Shown in pieces: positions 45,367-54,110 of a stretch of DNA of 64,000 nucleotides. Position 1 is the first letter of the stretch. Each line of letters begins with the position of its first letter. Source of the DNA: Mariniphaga sediminis (lineage in GTDB: Bacteria > Bacteroidota > Bacteroidia > Bacteroidales > Prolixibacteraceae); contig NZ_QWET01000004.1 of assembly GCF_003573545.1 (NCBI RefSeq), positions 124,001 through 188,000 of the forward strand, read 5' to 3'. Made by a program: the position numbers and the translations under genes. The notes under the pieces were generated by a model. That model ran no database searches, was not told the origin of the DNA, and worked only from the letters and a program-made list of their open reading frames with translations.

Positions 45367-47211
45367 TTAAAAACCGATATTTATTCCGGAAAAAACGGTA
45401 GCTCCCGGCATGGTATAATAACGATTTACCTGGTATTCTTCATTCAGCAGGTTTTCACCACTTACATACCATTTCAGGTGCTTATTGATAGTATAGACAG
45501 CTTTCGCTTTCAGAAGCGTATAATTTTCGCTGGTTACGATAGCCGACGGATCGTTATCCAAATTACTGATTTGCTGTAAACTCCCGGTTAGCTGAAATTT
45601 TTTCCACTGATAGCGCGCACTAAGGTACACATGATGTTCCGGGGTGGCATATACCGGAGTTTTCATGTTGATATAACTGTAAGTTCCTTCCAAACTAAGT
45701 TTGCTGGAAGGGTGTACATGCATTAAAACTTCGATTCCTTTGTTGTCAATTTTCCCGGCATTTCGCAAACCTTCCATTGGAATCGTAATTATCAGGTTAT
45801 CACCTTTTACTGAAAACAGGGTCATTTCAGCCTTCATCATTCCATTAAAAAAGGTGTTAGAAATCCCCGTTTCATAGTTTAAAATGGTTTCCGGGTCTAA
45901 AGCCGGATTAGGTCCCCACAGAAACAACTCGCGAATAGTGGGACTGCGAAACCCTTTTGAGACGTTTCCCTTCCACGTAGCCAAACCAGCAAACTGCCAC
46001 GCAAAACCGGCCGAAGGCACCCAATGCCCCCCGTAAACACTGTGATTCTGGTAACGTAACCCGGCGTTGAGTATCAGCTTTTCGCGAAAAGTTTGCTGCG
46101 TAAAACCATATACTCCTGTTTCATTAACAGTTGTATCAGCAAATACAATCCCGTTCCCGTTCATGGCTTTCAGGTTCTCTGCCATTCCCCCGTAATTCAT
46201 ATGATCCACGCCAAGGGTAATGGTATTTCCTTCAAACAGTTTAAGGGACTCATAAAAGTTTAGCCCGTAGTTATGATCTTTTGAATGAAAACCATCGGTA
46301 ATATCATGTTCTCCAAAATTGTAAAAGAGCTGGAGGGAACCCGTTAGTTTTTCAAATTCATTTTGAACGGCAAATGCCCAGTAGCCGCGGGTAATGTCAA
46401 TCTTTTCTCCCGGAGAGGCATTCAAAGTGTCGGGGCCGGGGTCAGCTGCGTCAAAAACAGCAAGGCTCAGATCGGTGCTTACACGAAGATTTCGGTTGAT
46501 GTCATAAGCCAGTTTTGCATAACCGTTGCTGATTTTAAATTCAGAATCTTCGCGGTGACCGTCAGTATTATCGTGGTTTGCAGAAATAAAAGCGCTGAAT
46601 TTTTCCTTTTTATAACCAGCTGACCCCATATATTTTTGGGTATTGAACGAGCCGTAAGTAAACCTTGCGTTCCCGTTAACCCCTTCATTTGTTTGCTTTT
46701 TCGTGATAATATTAATAACACCTCCCATGGCATTTGAGCCGTAAAGAATGGAAGCCGGGCCACGGATTATTTCCACCCTTTCGGCATCTGACGCCACATA
46801 AGAATCCGGAAGCGGATGCCCCATAATTCCCATAAACTGCGGATGCCCGTCGATGAGCATTAGCACACCGGTAGTGGGAGAACCTCCTATTCCCCGAATG
46901 GATATCTGCCCTGCCGAGCCTGCGGCCACGCCAAATCCCGTCACCCCGCGCTCGGTGACAAACAGCCCCGGAACCTTTCCGTTCAAAACCGGAAGCAACG
47001 CCGACTCATCGCTCTCCTCAATCCGGGCTTTGTTGATTACCGAAACAGCCATGGGAACATTATTGCGGTGCACCCTGACCGGCGACCCTGTCACCACTAC
47101 TTCTTCAATTTCCAGGCTATCAACTATATCATCCTGCCCCACACCCCAAAAAGGGGAAAATATCATTGCGAAAAAAAATATTCCGGCTAAAAGGTTTTTA
47201 AAACGACTCAT
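45367..47211 (-). CDS. TonB-dependent outer-membrane receptor
   Basis: This 614-aa receptor has a signal peptide, a TonB box (IEEVVVTG), a plug domain with IRGPASILYGSNAMGGVINI and a beta-barrel ending in Phe. It lacks the N-terminal carboxypeptidase-like domain of SusC proteins and is of BtuB size, which suggests a metal, chelate or cofactor rather than a glycan. The plug loop GHPQFMGIMGHPLPD is rich in His and Met. A NikR-family gene lies 59 bp upstream on the same strand, and a candidate operator lies between them, so control by that regulator is likely. Confidence 0.92.
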   Translation of the reverse strand: MSRFKNLLAGIFFFAMIFSPFWGVGQDDIVDSLEIEEVVVTGSPVRVHRNNVPMAVSVINKARIEESDESALLPVLNGKVPGLFVTERGVTGFGVAAGSAGQISIRGIGGSPTTGVLMLIDGHPQFMGIMGHPLPDSYVASDAERVEIIRGPASILYGSNAMGGVINIITKKQTNEGVNGNARFTYGSFNTQKYMGSAGYKKEKFSAFISANHDNTDGHREDSEFKISNGYAKLAYDINRNLRVSTDLSLAVFDAADPGPDTLNASPGEKIDITRGYWAFAVQNEFEKLTGSLQLFYNFGEHDITDGFHSKDHNYGLNFYESLKLFEGNTITLGVDHMNYGGMAENLKAMNGNGIVFADTTVNETGVYGFTQQTFREKLILNAGLRYQNHSVYGGHWVPSAGFAWQFAGLATWKGNVSKGFRSPTIRELFLWGPNPALDPETILNYETGISNTFFNGMMKAEMTLFSVKGDNLIITIPMEGLRNAGKIDNKGIEVLMHVHPSSKLSLEGTYSYINMKTPVYATPEHHVYLSARYQWKKFQLTGSLQQISNLDNDPSAIVTSENYTLLKAKAVYTINKHLKWYVSGENLLNEEYQVNRYYTMPGATVFSGINIGF

Positions 47212-47224
47212 CTACTTTTCTTTT

Positions 47225-47252
47225 GTGTTACTAATTCTATATTTCGTGTTAC
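47225..47252 (-). promoter_or_regulatory. candidate NikR-family operator before the TonB receptor
   Basis: On the minus strand GTAACAC, 14 nt and GTAACAC form a 28-bp repeat that starts 14 bp upstream of the receptor ATG. It follows the same GTnnCAC-N14-GTnnCAC plan as the site at 47674-47701, including GAA after the first half-site. Confidence 0.6.
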
Positions 47253-47270: not shown

Positions 47271-47672
47271 TTATTCTGCTTTGCTCATAACCAATTTTCC
47301 GTGCTGGATTCCCTTAATACTGATTAACCGATCCGAGATTTCAGTGAGTCGTTTGGAAGGACCTTTCACAGCGACAATCTCAAGGTAGTTTTGTTCGTTC
47401 AGATAAAACCCCTGGGAAGAGAGTACAACATCCCTGTAATCGAATTGTATTTCGGAAGATTTTTTTAAAATATCGGCCTTCTCATGATTGAAAACCAGCA
47501 CAACCGCACCCGCCACAATATTGTCGCACTTCCATTTTTCTTCCACCAGATTCTTTTCAATCAAATGGCGAATAGCCTGAGAACGGTTGGCAAACCTGTT
47601 TTCAGCAACGTAATCGTCAAGAGCATGTAAAAGTTCTTCATCAAGTGAAACACCAAAACGGGTGACTGGCAT
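47271..47672 (-). CDS. nikR: NikR-family ribbon-helix-helix regulator with altered metal site
   Basis: The 133-aa protein matches NikR in length and layout: an N-terminal ribbon-helix-helix (TRFGVSLDEELLHALDDYV) and a C-terminal ACT-like metal domain. An ungapped alignment of the metal domain to E. coli NikR shows all four nickel ligands replaced: H76 by F77, H87 by G88, H89 by Y90 and C95 by Y96. It therefore probably does not sense nickel in the known way. It lies directly before a TonB receptor gene and has a candidate operator over its own start. The partner ligand is unknown. Confidence 0.88.
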   Translation of the reverse strand: MPVTRFGVSLDEELLHALDDYVAENRFANRSQAIRHLIEKNLVEEKWKCDNIVAGAVVLVFNHEKADILKKSSEIQFDYRDVVLSSQGFYLNEQNYLEIVAVKGPSKRLTEISDRLISIKGIQHGKLVMSKAE

Positions 47673-47673
47673 T

Positions 47674-47701
47674 GTGACACATTTTTAAAAATTCGTGGCA
47701 C
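47674..47701 (-). promoter_or_regulatory. candidate NikR-family operator before nikR-like gene
   Basis: On the minus strand GTGCCAC, 14 nt and GTGTCAC form a 28-bp repeat ending one base before the ATG at 47672. Half-sites are spaced 21 bp, as in the site at 47225-47252. E. coli NikR sites are also 28 bp (GTATGA-N16-TCATAC). Confidence 0.6.
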
Positions 47702-47723: not shown

Positions 47724-49673
47724 TTAAGAATGTCCTTTCTGTATTTTCTTTACTATTGTTCTTTTGGAGGTACTGATTTCCATCAGATAAAAACCTTCGG
47801 GAAGGTCTGAAAAGTTAAAAATAGTTTGATCGCCCTGAAATCTCTGTAACAATACGCCTTCAGAAGAAAATAAACGCACCTCGCGTAACGTCTCCGATCC
47901 CGGAACAGAAACAGCTAACCTGCCAGTGAAAGGGTTCGGAAATACTGCAACTTCCTTCAAGTCCCGGACAAAAGAAACCTGAACCGTTTTGGCCGTTTCA
48001 GAAACAATTTGGTAATCGGGGTCGATTTTAATTTCAGCTACATCAAATCCGGGGTCAACCAGAAACTCCTGATTATTATGAAGGTGAACCAGCCTGAAAT
48101 CGACCGAATCAGTTCTCCCTTCAGAATAGGCCCTGACCGGAACAGGCATCTCGAAAAAACCAACCGAAGAATGCGATGTAGTTTGGGAAAGTACAATTTT
48201 CATCATTTGATTGCCTGCCTGCATAAATTCGAGGGAGTAAACAGGGTATCCTTCACCATAATACCAATCGTTAAAAAACTCAGTAAGGGAGGTGTCGCCT
48301 GCTGCTTCAAAGTGAGCGACAACCTGTTCGTGGCGGGCAAAACCATTGGCAACTTCAGGATCCTTGAAGTAATTTCTCAGTCCTTCGAAAAAAGCTTCGT
48401 CTCCTAAAACCCAACGCAACATGTGCAACAGGTAGGCTCCTTTGTAGTATGAAAGCCTTCCATTAAAAACCCTCGCAATACTTGTAGTATCCGGCACAAA
48501 AACCGACCCGTCGGGTTCGCTTATAATACTTTGAACATTCAATTGTTTCCATCGGGGCCACCACACTCCTTCCTGGAGATGTTCATAAGACAAGCCGGTA
48601 AGGTATGTGGCAAAACCTTCATTTAACCAAATATGCTGCCAGCTAGCCAATGTAATATGATTTCCAAACCACTGATGCGCCAGTTCGTGTGCGATAAGCT
48701 CAAAACTGAATCCCCCCATAAAACTCATCGTCTGGTGTTCCATTCCACCTCTCCACCCAAATTGTGCATGCCCGTATTTCTCTGCGGCGAATGGGTACTC
48801 CCCGATTAAATCATCATACAACGCCATCACTTCCACCGTCAATGGAGTGTTTTCCCTGGCACTCTCCAGATCCTCCGGATATACAAAATTCAGAATTTCA
48901 ATTTTACGGCCATCTTCCATTTCCAAAAAATCGGAGTAATCGACATAATTTGTAACGGCAATGGCAACCAGATATGTTGCAATCGGATAGCGATGTTTCC
49001 AATGCATGATCCGTTCTCCTCCTGTTACTGTTTCAGAAACAAGAATTCCGTTACTGGCCGTTCGGTGAATTTCGGGGGTAGTAACAATCACATCTATGGA
49101 GTCAATTTTGTCAGAAAGCGACTGCTTGCAGGGCCACCATTCAAAAGCCCCGTATGGTTCGGAAAGTGTCCAGATAACTGGCACCCCGTTATGCGTCCCT
49201 TTGAAAAAAGAGCCAAATCCACTCCCAGTAGGTTCGCCCTGATAAAAAACAGACACCGAATCAATACCATTATTGCCGAGCGATTGAGACAATTGGATTG
49301 AAAGTTTATCCTCCGTTCTGGTATAATTTATATTGCTACTTCCCTGCCGCACAGAATCGACCTGCATGGAATGCTCCAGGTCGAATTCAATGACTTCCAA
49401 ACCATCGGTTCTGCTTTTAATATACGATGTTATTTTACCACGAATGTATTTTATACCCGGGTTGATTTCCCATTCCATGCGCTGGTAAATCAAATCGTAT
49501 GAAGCATAGCCCGGGGATTCAGTAAACTCCGCTTTTTTTAGAAGGCGGCTGCCTTCAGCCTTTGCTATTTTATCCACAAAAAAAATATCGGGTTCCTGCG
49601 CTGTACCTTCCGTAAGCAAGGCAGAAATAAAAAATGATATTAAAACAAACCGAATTATTCTTTTAAGGTACAT
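47724..49673 (-). CDS. secreted M1-family metallopeptidase with T9SS sorting domain
   Basis: The 649-aa protein has a signal peptide, an M1 aminopeptidase domain with HELAHQWF, a downstream NEGFATY Glu, and a GGMEH variant of the GxMEN substrate motif. The last about 75 residues (from VFPNPFTGRL) are a T9SS type A sorting domain. It is therefore a predicted cargo of the T9SS whose core is encoded at 35.7-41.5 kb, and should be released or attached at the cell surface, where it would trim peptides. Confidence 0.93.
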   Translation of the reverse strand: MYLKRIIRFVLISFFISALLTEGTAQEPDIFFVDKIAKAEGSRLLKKAEFTESPGYASYDLIYQRMEWEINPGIKYIRGKITSYIKSRTDGLEVIEFDLEHSMQVDSVRQGSSNINYTRTEDKLSIQLSQSLGNNGIDSVSVFYQGEPTGSGFGSFFKGTHNGVPVIWTLSEPYGAFEWWPCKQSLSDKIDSIDVIVTTPEIHRTASNGILVSETVTGGERIMHWKHRYPIATYLVAIAVTNYVDYSDFLEMEDGRKIEILNFVYPEDLESARENTPLTVEVMALYDDLIGEYPFAAEKYGHAQFGWRGGMEHQTMSFMGGFSFELIAHELAHQWFGNHITLASWQHIWLNEGFATYLTGLSYEHLQEGVWWPRWKQLNVQSIISEPDGSVFVPDTTSIARVFNGRLSYYKGAYLLHMLRWVLGDEAFFEGLRNYFKDPEVANGFARHEQVVAHFEAAGDTSLTEFFNDWYYGEGYPVYSLEFMQAGNQMMKIVLSQTTSHSSVGFFEMPVPVRAYSEGRTDSVDFRLVHLHNNQEFLVDPGFDVAEIKIDPDYQIVSETAKTVQVSFVRDLKEVAVFPNPFTGRLAVSVPGSETLREVRLFSSEGVLLQRFQGDQTIFNFSDLPEGFYLMEISTSKRTIVKKIQKGHS

Positions 49674-51674: not shown

Positions 51675-52550
51675 ATGAACAAGATTTTAGTGATTTTTAC
51701 CGTTGCGATTTTTCTGTTTTCATGCAACTCAAATAAAAAGAAAAACGATAATCAGAAGAAGCCGGTAATTACGGTAAGTATTTTACCTCAAAAGACTTTC
51801 GTGGAAAAAATTGCGGGTGATGATTTTGATGTACAGGTGCTGGTACCCCAGGGGGCAAGCCCTGAATCTTATAACCTTCTTCCTTCCCAGCTACAAAAAA
51901 TTTCCCATTCAGCGGTATGGTTTCGTATCGGGCACATCGGCTTTGAATTATCCTGGATTAATAAAGTGAAAGAACTTAATCCCGAAATGCAGGTTGTCGA
52001 TCTTTCAGAAGGACTTGAATTAATTGTTGGTGAAGAGGAGCAACATGGCGACCATGTGCATGTGGGAGGAGTCGACCCGCACACCTGGCTCTCGCCCAAA
52101 CGGGTGAAACAAATGGCTGAACGAATTACAGATATTTTGACAGGACTGAATCCTGAAAAAAGCGCTGAATACAAAGCCAACTATCTGAAATTTACGAAAG
52201 AGATCGATCAGTTAGATATAAAAATCCGCAATGCGTTAAAAGATTACAAAGGCCGGACCTTCATCACTTTTCACCCAAGCCTCTCCTACTTTGCCCATGA
52301 TTATGAGCTAGTGCAATACCCGCTTGAATTGGAAGGGAAAGAGCCCACTCCGCAGCACATGGCAGAAGTGGTTGAAAAAGCCCGCAAAAAAAATATCCGT
52401 GTTGTGTATATTCAAAATGAATTTGACAAAGAGCATGCCCGCGTGTTTGCGGAAGAAATTAAAGGGGAGGTAATTGAAATTTGGCCGCTCAATCCTGATT
52501 GGGAATCGAACCTGCTGGAACTAACCAACCTTTTTATCGACAATTTTTAA
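51675..52550 (+). CDS. znuA: zinc/manganese-type ABC transporter substrate-binding lipoprotein
   Basis: The 291-aa protein has a lipoprotein signal ending LFSC and the cluster A-I metal-binding fold. Likely ligands are the His in IGHIGFE, in DPHTWLSP and in TFHPSLSYFAHDY, with a His-rich loop EEEQHGDHVHVGGV before the second. The position where manganese-type proteins usually have Asp near DPL reads WPL here, which favours a three-His zinc site; this is inference. The ATPase gene overlaps its stop by one base. Confidence 0.88.
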   Translation: MNKILVIFTVAIFLFSCNSNKKKNDNQKKPVITVSILPQKTFVEKIAGDDFDVQVLVPQGASPESYNLLPSQLQKISHSAVWFRIGHIGFELSWINKVKELNPEMQVVDLSEGLELIVGEEEQHGDHVHVGGVDPHTWLSPKRVKQMAERITDILTGLNPEKSAEYKANYLKFTKEIDQLDIKIRNALKDYKGRTFITFHPSLSYFAHDYELVQYPLELEGKEPTPQHMAEVVEKARKKNIRVVYIQNEFDKEHARVFAEEIKGEVIEIWPLNPDWESNLLELTNLFIDNF

Positions 52551-53305
52551 TGGAGCCACTGATTAAAATAAAAGACCTGACCCTGGGATACGACAGGGAA
52601 CCGGTGTTACACAAGGTAAACCTGGAAATATTTGAAAAAGATTTTGTCGGGGTTATCGGGCCAAACGGTGGGGGGAAAACGACTCTGCTGAAAGCCGTTC
52701 TGGGATTACTAGCCCCCATGAGTGGAAAAATAATTTTCAGAAAGGACATCAACAAACAGAAAAAGCCAATCGGGTACCTTCCACAGGTAAAACACATCGA
52801 TCGCAATTTTCCTATTACCGTATTCGAGGTGGTACGTTCGGGCGCCATCATGCAAAGCCCGGCTGATATTACCAACGCTGAAATCAGAAAAAGAGTTGAA
52901 GATTTGCTCGTTGAAATGGGAATCTCTCACATCCGGAATAAAGCAATAGGAGAACTTTCGGGAGGACAAATGCAGCGGGTTTTTTTATGCCGGGCATTGC
53001 TCAGCGATCCCAAAGTCCTCATTCTTGATGAACCCGATACATTTGTCGACAATCATTTTGAAGGGGAATTATATGAGAAACTAAAACAGCTGAATAAAGA
53101 AAAAGCCATTATCCTGGTTTCACACGATGTGGGAACTATTTCGAGCTACGTAAAAACCATTGCCTGCGTAAATGGTGAACTGCATTACCACCCCGATAAT
53201 ATTATTACCCAGGATCAACTGAACAGTTACAATTGCCCCATCAAACTCATTACCCACGGGGAAATTCCTCACACTGTATTAAAACACCATCATCAACATG
53301 AGTAA
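52550..53305 (+). CDS. znuC: metal ABC transporter ATP-binding protein
   Basis: The ATPase (251 aa from the ATG at 52550) has Walker A GPNGGGKT, the signature LSGGQMQRVFLCRALL, Walker B LILDEPDTFVD and the switch His in VSHDVG. The ATG overlaps the TAA of the binding-protein gene, which supports this start over an upstream one at 52499. The C-terminus ends in His-rich LKHHHQHE. It is coupled to the permease gene by an 8-nt overlap. Confidence 0.92.
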   Translation: MEPLIKIKDLTLGYDREPVLHKVNLEIFEKDFVGVIGPNGGGKTTLLKAVLGLLAPMSGKIIFRKDINKQKKPIGYLPQVKHIDRNFPITVFEVVRSGAIMQSPADITNAEIRKRVEDLLVEMGISHIRNKAIGELSGGQMQRVFLCRALLSDPKVLILDEPDTFVDNHFEGELYEKLKQLNKEKAIILVSHDVGTISSYVKTIACVNGELHYHPDNIITQDQLNSYNCPIKLITHGEIPHTVLKHHHQHE

Positions 53306-54110
53306 CTTTATAGACCTTTTTTCTTACGCATTTTTTCAAAAGGCATTTCTTGCAGCTGTTTTTGCCAGCATTTCATGTGGAATTGTTGGCAGCTACATTG
53401 TAGCACGGCGTATTGTATTCATTAGCGGAGGAATTACACACGCTTCCTTTGGCGGTATCGGACTGGCATTTTTGATGGGCTTTAACCCCCTTGTAGGCGC
53501 CGTAATTTTTGCGGTTGGAGCGGCCCTTGGAATCCAGTTTTTCACGAAAGTGGCACGGGTCCGTGAAGACTCCTCCATTGCCATTTTCTGGTCATTCGGC
53601 ATGGCGCTCGGCATTATTTTCGTTTTTATGACTCCCGGCTACACACCGAACCTGATGAGTTATTTGTTCGGGAATATCCTCACCGTCACTATTTCTGAGC
53701 TTTGGTGGATGTTCATCCTGAATGTAGTGGTCATTTTGTTCTTTTCCGTTTTCTTTCGTAAAATACTGTACATTGCTTTCGATGAAGAATTTGCGCGCGC
53801 AGCAGGACTGCCCGTCTCCCTTTTTAATTACCTCACCATTACCCTGGTGGCTTTAACAGTAGTTTTGAATATCCGCGTGGTGGGAATCATTTTAATCCTT
53901 TCACTTTTAACTATTCCCCAGGCCGCAGCCAACCTTTTCACCAAAGATTTTAAGCACCTACTCATCCTCTCTTCTGTTTTTGCATTCATAGGAACCCTGG
54001 CCGGATTGTTCATTTCCTATTTTATGGATATTCCGTCGGGCGCTACCATCATATTCACATTAGTGGTTATGTTTGGACTGCTTCGGTTGTATAAACAATT
54101 TTTCAGATGA
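53298..54110 (+). CDS. znuB: metal ABC transporter permease
   Basis: The 270-aa inner-membrane protein has about eight hydrophobic segments and matches the ZnuB/ABC-3 family, with IVSGGITHASFGG-like ISGGITHASFGGIGLAF near the start and VVGIILILSLLTIPQAAA later. It moves the metal delivered by the binding protein. Its stop overlaps the start of the small zinc-ribbon gene by 4 nt, and its start overlaps the ATPase gene by 8 nt. Confidence 0.93.
   Translation: MSNFIDLFSYAFFQKAFLAAVFASISCGIVGSYIVARRIVFISGGITHASFGGIGLAFLMGFNPLVGAVIFAVGAALGIQFFTKVARVREDSSIAIFWSFGMALGIIFVFMTPGYTPNLMSYLFGNILTVTISELWWMFILNVVVILFFSVFFRKILYIAFDEEFARAAGLPVSLFNYLTITLVALTVVLNIRVVGIILILSLLTIPQAAANLFTKDFKHLLILSSVFAFIGTLAGLFISYFMDIPSGATIIFTLVVMFGLLRLYKQFFR

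Follow-up and report, generated by a model that had tools for sequence, protein, structure and literature searches.

NikR-like regulators without the canonical nickel ligands seem to retain NikR operators and targets in the Bacteroidales

The window, the 64-kb stretch of DNA analysed here, encodes a NikR homologue in which all four canonical nickel ligands have been replaced. Our preferred reading, to which we assign a probability of roughly 55%, is that this protein is a functional NikR-derived repressor that has kept the NikR operator and regulon while its input is no longer the canonical square-planar Ni(II) site. More broadly, in one order of bacteria (Bacteroidales) the signal to which the NikR switch responds seems to have been altered on more than one occasion, because the nickel-holding residues were lost while the apparent DNA targets, a nickel-cofactor pathway and an uptake receptor of the metal type, look unchanged. 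The features of the window on which this reading is built are as follows.

47271..47672, minus strand: NikR homologue without the four nickel ligands (F77, G88, Y90 and Y96), 133 aa, ATG start; ribbon-helix-helix (RHH) domain at about residues 5-40 and NikR_C domain at residues 54-129
47674..47701, minus strand: NikR-box-like operator GTGCCAC-N14-GTGTCAC directly 5' of the nikR start codon, matching the consensus half-sites at 11/14 positions
47225..47252, minus strand: NikR-box operator GTAACAC-N14-GTAACAC directly 5' of the TonB-receptor start codon, 14/14
45367..47211, minus strand: TonB-dependent receptor, 614 aa, the immediate downstream neighbour of nikR

The plus strand across 47271-47672 contains stops in the same frame. 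The protein matches Pfam NikR_C at 74 bits (cut-off 22) and RHH_1 at 23.9 bits (cut-off 20.5), the latter in agreement with the preliminary description of an intact ribbon-helix-helix. It also scores 131 bits (cut-off 105) against the NCBIfam equivalog NF003381, "nickel-responsive transcriptional regulator NikR", which means that this database name is assigned to proteins without a nickel site. In a phmmer search against PDB sequences, the closest solved relative is P. horikoshii NikR (2bj1, E=3.2e-30), followed by H. pylori NikR and E. coli NikR (1q5v, E=1.5e-13), and the alignments to 2bj1 and 1q5v are gap-free from the shared H-E/D-x region through LE(I/V)..KG. The high-affinity ligands of E. 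coli NikR, named in an excerpt of PMC7055735 as His76, His87, His89 and Cys95, fall in the columns of F77, G88, Y90 and Y96, confirming the earlier claim that all four are lost. A register shift, raised earlier as a way in which the ligands might merely be displaced, was rejected as unlikely because relatives retain the canonical H or C in precisely these four columns, in varying partial sets (IHHC, HSHC, SHFY, AIHC, NCHC and others). The E. coli low-affinity site Glu30/Asp34 is absent as well, with Q32 and H36 in its place; Q32 is undiagnostic, since 56/62 intact relatives also carry it. Since these ligands are a defining feature of NikR, the protein is better described as NikR-like. No other NikR_C gene was found in the window's genome (5.83 Mb in 70 contigs), and the nearest named relatives of this one among the best 80 of 446 matches belong to Mariniphaga, Maribellus and Draconibacterium.

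NikR_C was present in 91/120 genomes of the family sample (Prolixibacteraceae), 71/295 of the order sample and 71/395 of the phylum sample (Bacteroidota). The first alignment of 147 sequences contained 62 with an intact HHHC set and 85 without. A non-redundant set of 161, from which nine duplicate proteins had been removed, comprised 60 intact homologues and 101 lacking at least one ligand, proportions biased towards the variant because the search was queried with an alignment of ligand-less proteins and its best 80 of 446 matches were kept. Among these 101, none of the four ligands is kept in 52, one in 38, two in 9 and three in 2. Four weak NikR_C matches (loci L064-L067, E about 1e-4) were left out of the alignment, and some loci in the alignment, neighbourhood and receptor-box counts represent the same genome from two collections. 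In the phylum sample, the main matches of the 69 NikR_C genomes outside the order score 91.8-117 bits, like intact proteins, and the two from within it (G000, the window's genome, and G105) score 74.7 and 81.7 bits. All 19 homologues read outside the order, from 19 of the 69 genomes, are HHHC, so in this sampling ligand loss appears to be limited to the order. Three draft genomes (G329, G366 and G372) each carry an intact NikR_C gene and a second, low-scoring one, which may be an artefact because these drafts carry 5-6% contamination.

We computed trees with the ligand columns removed, which left about 126-129 columns and weakly resolved topologies. The larger tree (112 rows) needs six changes, at least three of them forced by well-supported branches, and a single ligand-less clade occurs in 0/200 of its bootstrap trees, although such a clade remains acceptable under the AU test (p=0.215). 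A second tree (74 rows) needs four changes, at least two of them forced, and there the AU test rejects one clade (p-AU=0.0207); it took in added lar-linked sequences and leaves out two odd rows (QRIV and IHFC), the QQYC-type group, near-copies, six intact rows on long branches and most of the distant intact rows. The ligands have likely, if not provably, been lost recurrently, several times on the best trees. The suggestion in the preliminary description that the variant might form one clade co-occurring with this receptor was not supported, given the forced changes, the bootstrap result and the split AU tests, and given that ligand-less NikRs also head larECB operons.

The consensus of the boxes at these loci is identical to the NikR signal described for delta-proteobacteria, GTGTTAC-[N13/14]-GTAACAC with varied half-site orientation (as given in an excerpt of PMC545781). 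In the window, the score of the site before nikR was reached by 4/1000 dinucleotide shuffles of the 51-nt stretch and that of the site before the receptor gene by 0/1000, the latter being the only site of at least 12/14 in the whole 64 kb. A box of at least 11/14 lies between nikR and the receptor gene in 51/52 ligand-less and 22/26 intact loci (3/390 shuffles). Directly 5' of nikR, a box was found in 55/68 ligand-less loci, with the QQYC-type group left out, and in 37/57 intact loci (10/685 shuffles); the QQYC-type group has none (0/12 members). Because the sites occupy the starts of transcription units, their placement suggests repression. The window receptor groups with receptors that adjoin intact NikRs in a clade of 37 rows (29 beside ligand-less and 8 beside intact NikRs) with a support of 100 in a FastTree tree that carries long-branch warnings.

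Box patterns alone were too noisy to define a genome-wide regulon (26 matches versus 17 for a reversed-pattern control). A stricter pattern gave no more sites beyond the nikR locus than the control in four Draconibacterium-type and three NikR-less genomes; in the four former, which lack LarC, it marked the nikR locus and at most one more site each, the control level. A perfect GTGTTAC-N13-GTAACAC dyad in the window's genome (G000:C45:7049-7075, locus L165), between a gene for a secreted protein of 389 aa and one for a protein of 296 aa, may be a chance occurrence or an extra target. At three loci of the VQNC type (L103, L112 and L115), the gene for a ligand-less NikR comes first in a cluster for MacB/HlyD-like ABC export that contains no receptor or lar genes, and the upstream box is degenerate (7-8/14). 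Within the window, a metal ABC transporter comprising a ZnuA/MntC-like binding protein with a His-rich loop, an ATPase and a permease lies 4 kb from nikR (51675-54110, plus strand), in a synteny kept in several relatives; no box of at least 12/14 was found there. Just upstream of nikR is an M1-family peptidase gene with a T9SS sorting domain (47724-49673, minus strand), which is kept in that position in 27 ligand-less loci. The window gave no Rfam match to a cobalamin riboswitch or any other known RNA.

The second apparent target is the lar operon. In many relatives, larE lies directly behind the ligand-less nikR, followed by larC, larB and often a gene for a DsbD_2/UreH-like membrane protein. 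Of the NikR loci next to a larE cluster, 17 are ligand-less and none is intact; roughly half of the intact loci in this count span just ~3 kb, with the next gene still visible. Among genomes of the order sample with LarC and a NikR of known type, the regulator heads the lar operon in 6/7 ligand-less versus 0/16 intact cases (Fisher p=7e-5, uncorrected for kinship, with two intact genomes that have only weak partial LarC matches omitted). LarC occurs in 53/120 genomes of the family sample and by coordinates adjoins NikR in 24 of these 53; the 25 lar-adjacent NikR ORFs that were read, from 19 genomes, are all ligand-less and mostly belong to an E77-R88 lineage.

In the window's genome, larE-larC-larB lies on another contig (G000:C12, locus L152), and a box GTGTTAT-N14-GTGTCAC (12/14, 0/1000 shuffles) is located 55 bp before larE. 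A genome of the same genus (G301) has GTGTTAT-N14-GTGTTAC before larE (13/14, 0/1000 shuffles). Among lar loci with nikR elsewhere and readable DNA upstream of larE, a box of at least 11/14 was found in 4/7 and none in G310, G375 and G394. From these sites, the regulon in the window's genome probably also includes larECB. The same genome has LarC and two strong LarA homologues, with no 12/14 box near the two LarA genes. Urease and NiFe hydrogenase, looked for as nickel users in this genome, gave no match and were ruled out.

No LarC was found in G320 or G343, which are two of four genomes sampled from the window's genus and both have NikR, in many Draconibacterium-type genomes (genus code g3) with a window-type NikR and receptor, or in the QQYC-type group of the order sample. 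Among nine genomes that match LarA (Lar_N) strongly, five (G295, G298, G300, G366 and G398) gave no match to LarC; LarA in such genomes may need an imported cofactor or none. Most of the 120 family genomes, whether or not they have LarC, encode a protein of about 430 aa that is weakly related to Lar_N (E around 1e-7). In two genomes, larC is present as two overlapping frames (G219:C4:245932-247163 and G016:C402:3103-4217) and is possibly frameshifted.

Loss of the ligands might simply reflect a decaying gene, the nickel system being no longer needed and the regulator drifting, as several carrier genomes without LarC and the lack of hydrogenase and urease matches in the window's genome could suggest. 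We regard this as most improbable. In 6/6 pairs of four close Draconibacterium genes, dN/dS is 0.012-0.039 (dS is saturated in most comparisons with the window gene itself); the gene is therefore under strong purifying selection and maintained. The operators are retained, and RHH and linker residues are invariant. Mean entropy of the RHH is lower in ligand-less than in intact homologues (0.82 versus 1.25) and that of the C domain slightly higher (1.32 versus 1.08). The columns gaining most entropy in the ligand-less (80) relative to the intact (58) sequences are 77, 63, 88, 90, 64 and 96, then 62, 93 and 94; what changed is the metal site and its surroundings. With the ligands gone, the gene under purifying selection and boxes before both nikR and the receptor gene, the earlier reading, in which a regulator derived from NikR responds to another signal or to none and still controls a TonB receptor, gains support at the sequence level.

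Between another signal and none, the former metal site gives mixed evidence. The protein could be an apo-active repressor, or an autoregulator, that binds DNA independently of any ligand, so that receptor level is set by the amount of regulator only. We consider this somewhat unlikely, and yet the ligand columns are hypervariable across the ligand-less homologues, position 77 being the most variable of the protein, and the window-type group shows no new conserved His/Cys/Asp/Glu cluster in the 161-row alignment. Such hypervariability also fits a site without any ligand and in this respect counts against a changed input. The replacing residues are nevertheless non-random in two clades, consistent with a re-specialised pocket or a packed core. 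In the window clade (16 tree rows), G88 is found in 14, Y90 and Y96 in 13 each, and position 77 is F or Y in 13. The QQYC-type clade (10 tree rows) has Q88 in 8 rows and C96 in 9. These residue counts on tree clades were used instead of subgroup entropies, which are partly circular because two of the columns had defined the groups. The clade-wise partial fixation argues against pure drift at the site and names no ligand. It would also be odd for a constitutive repressor to retain its whole sensor domain repeatedly. Alternatively, a response to nickel, or to cobalt, could persist through other residues, such as linker Cys49 with its neighbours, His63 or His124. Cys49 is present in 101/101 and His124 in 99/101 ligand-less homologues, Trp47 in 85/85 (147-sequence alignment), and the regulon, with its lar genes, remains nickel-related. 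However, Cys49 (29/60 intact homologues) and His124 are common to intact relatives and hence do not amount to a substitute site, no more than 24/101 ligand-less homologues retain His63, and the window group has no added conserved ligand set. We therefore hold a displaced metal site to be unlikely.

In the preferred reading of a repressor with a changed input, the NikR homologue would most likely bind the boxes at its own, the TonB-receptor and the larECB promoters and repress all three. The signal entering the former metal pocket would no longer be a nickel ion held by His/His/His/Cys. At least where the regulator heads larECB, our first candidate would be a molecule made by the nickel pathway, for instance the nickel-pincer nucleotide or one of its precursors. 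Such a pincer-cofactor signal cannot apply throughout, because LarC is missing from many of the genomes that carry a window-type NikR and receptor. A more specific proposal, which we find rather doubtful, is that NikR was converted independently in several lineages from a Ni(II) sensor to a sensor of the nickel-pincer nucleotide or its precursor, with feedback to larECB and to a TonB receptor importing nickel chelates or the cofactor itself. In that case, E77 and R88 in one lar-linked lineage and the aromatic F/Y77-Y90-Y96 in the window lineage might replace the intersubunit nickel bridge or line a new pocket.

LarR, the regulator of the Lactiplantibacillus lar operon, is of the Crp/Fnr type. 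Our literature search found no publication tying NikR to larB, larC, larE or the nickel-pincer nucleotide, nothing joining nickel-pincer to TonB, nothing on NikR in Prolixibacteraceae and no regulator responding to the nickel-pincer nucleotide cofactor. The ligand-less NikRs point to a candidate regulator for nickel-pincer nucleotide synthesis. NikR is described, in an excerpt of PMC7055735, as the sole ribbon-helix-helix regulator under metal control, and natural variants that lack the metal site and keep the DNA targets could separate its DNA binding from the nickel switch.

The window protein shares with the NikRs of E. coli, P. horikoshii and H. pylori the RHH and NikR_C architecture, full-length homology, the NikR box and an adjoining uptake receptor, but unlike them lacks all four high-affinity nickel ligands. 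The operator sequence, spacing and variable half-site orientation resemble those of the delta-proteobacterial NikR regulons described in the excerpt of PMC545781; the targets there are nikMNQO-type transporters and hydrogenase, whereas here they appear to be a TonB receptor and larECB. With the known lar operon (LarB, LarC and LarE), these loci share larE-larC-larB, placed with the DsbD_2/UreH-like membrane protein behind many of the ligand-less NikRs.
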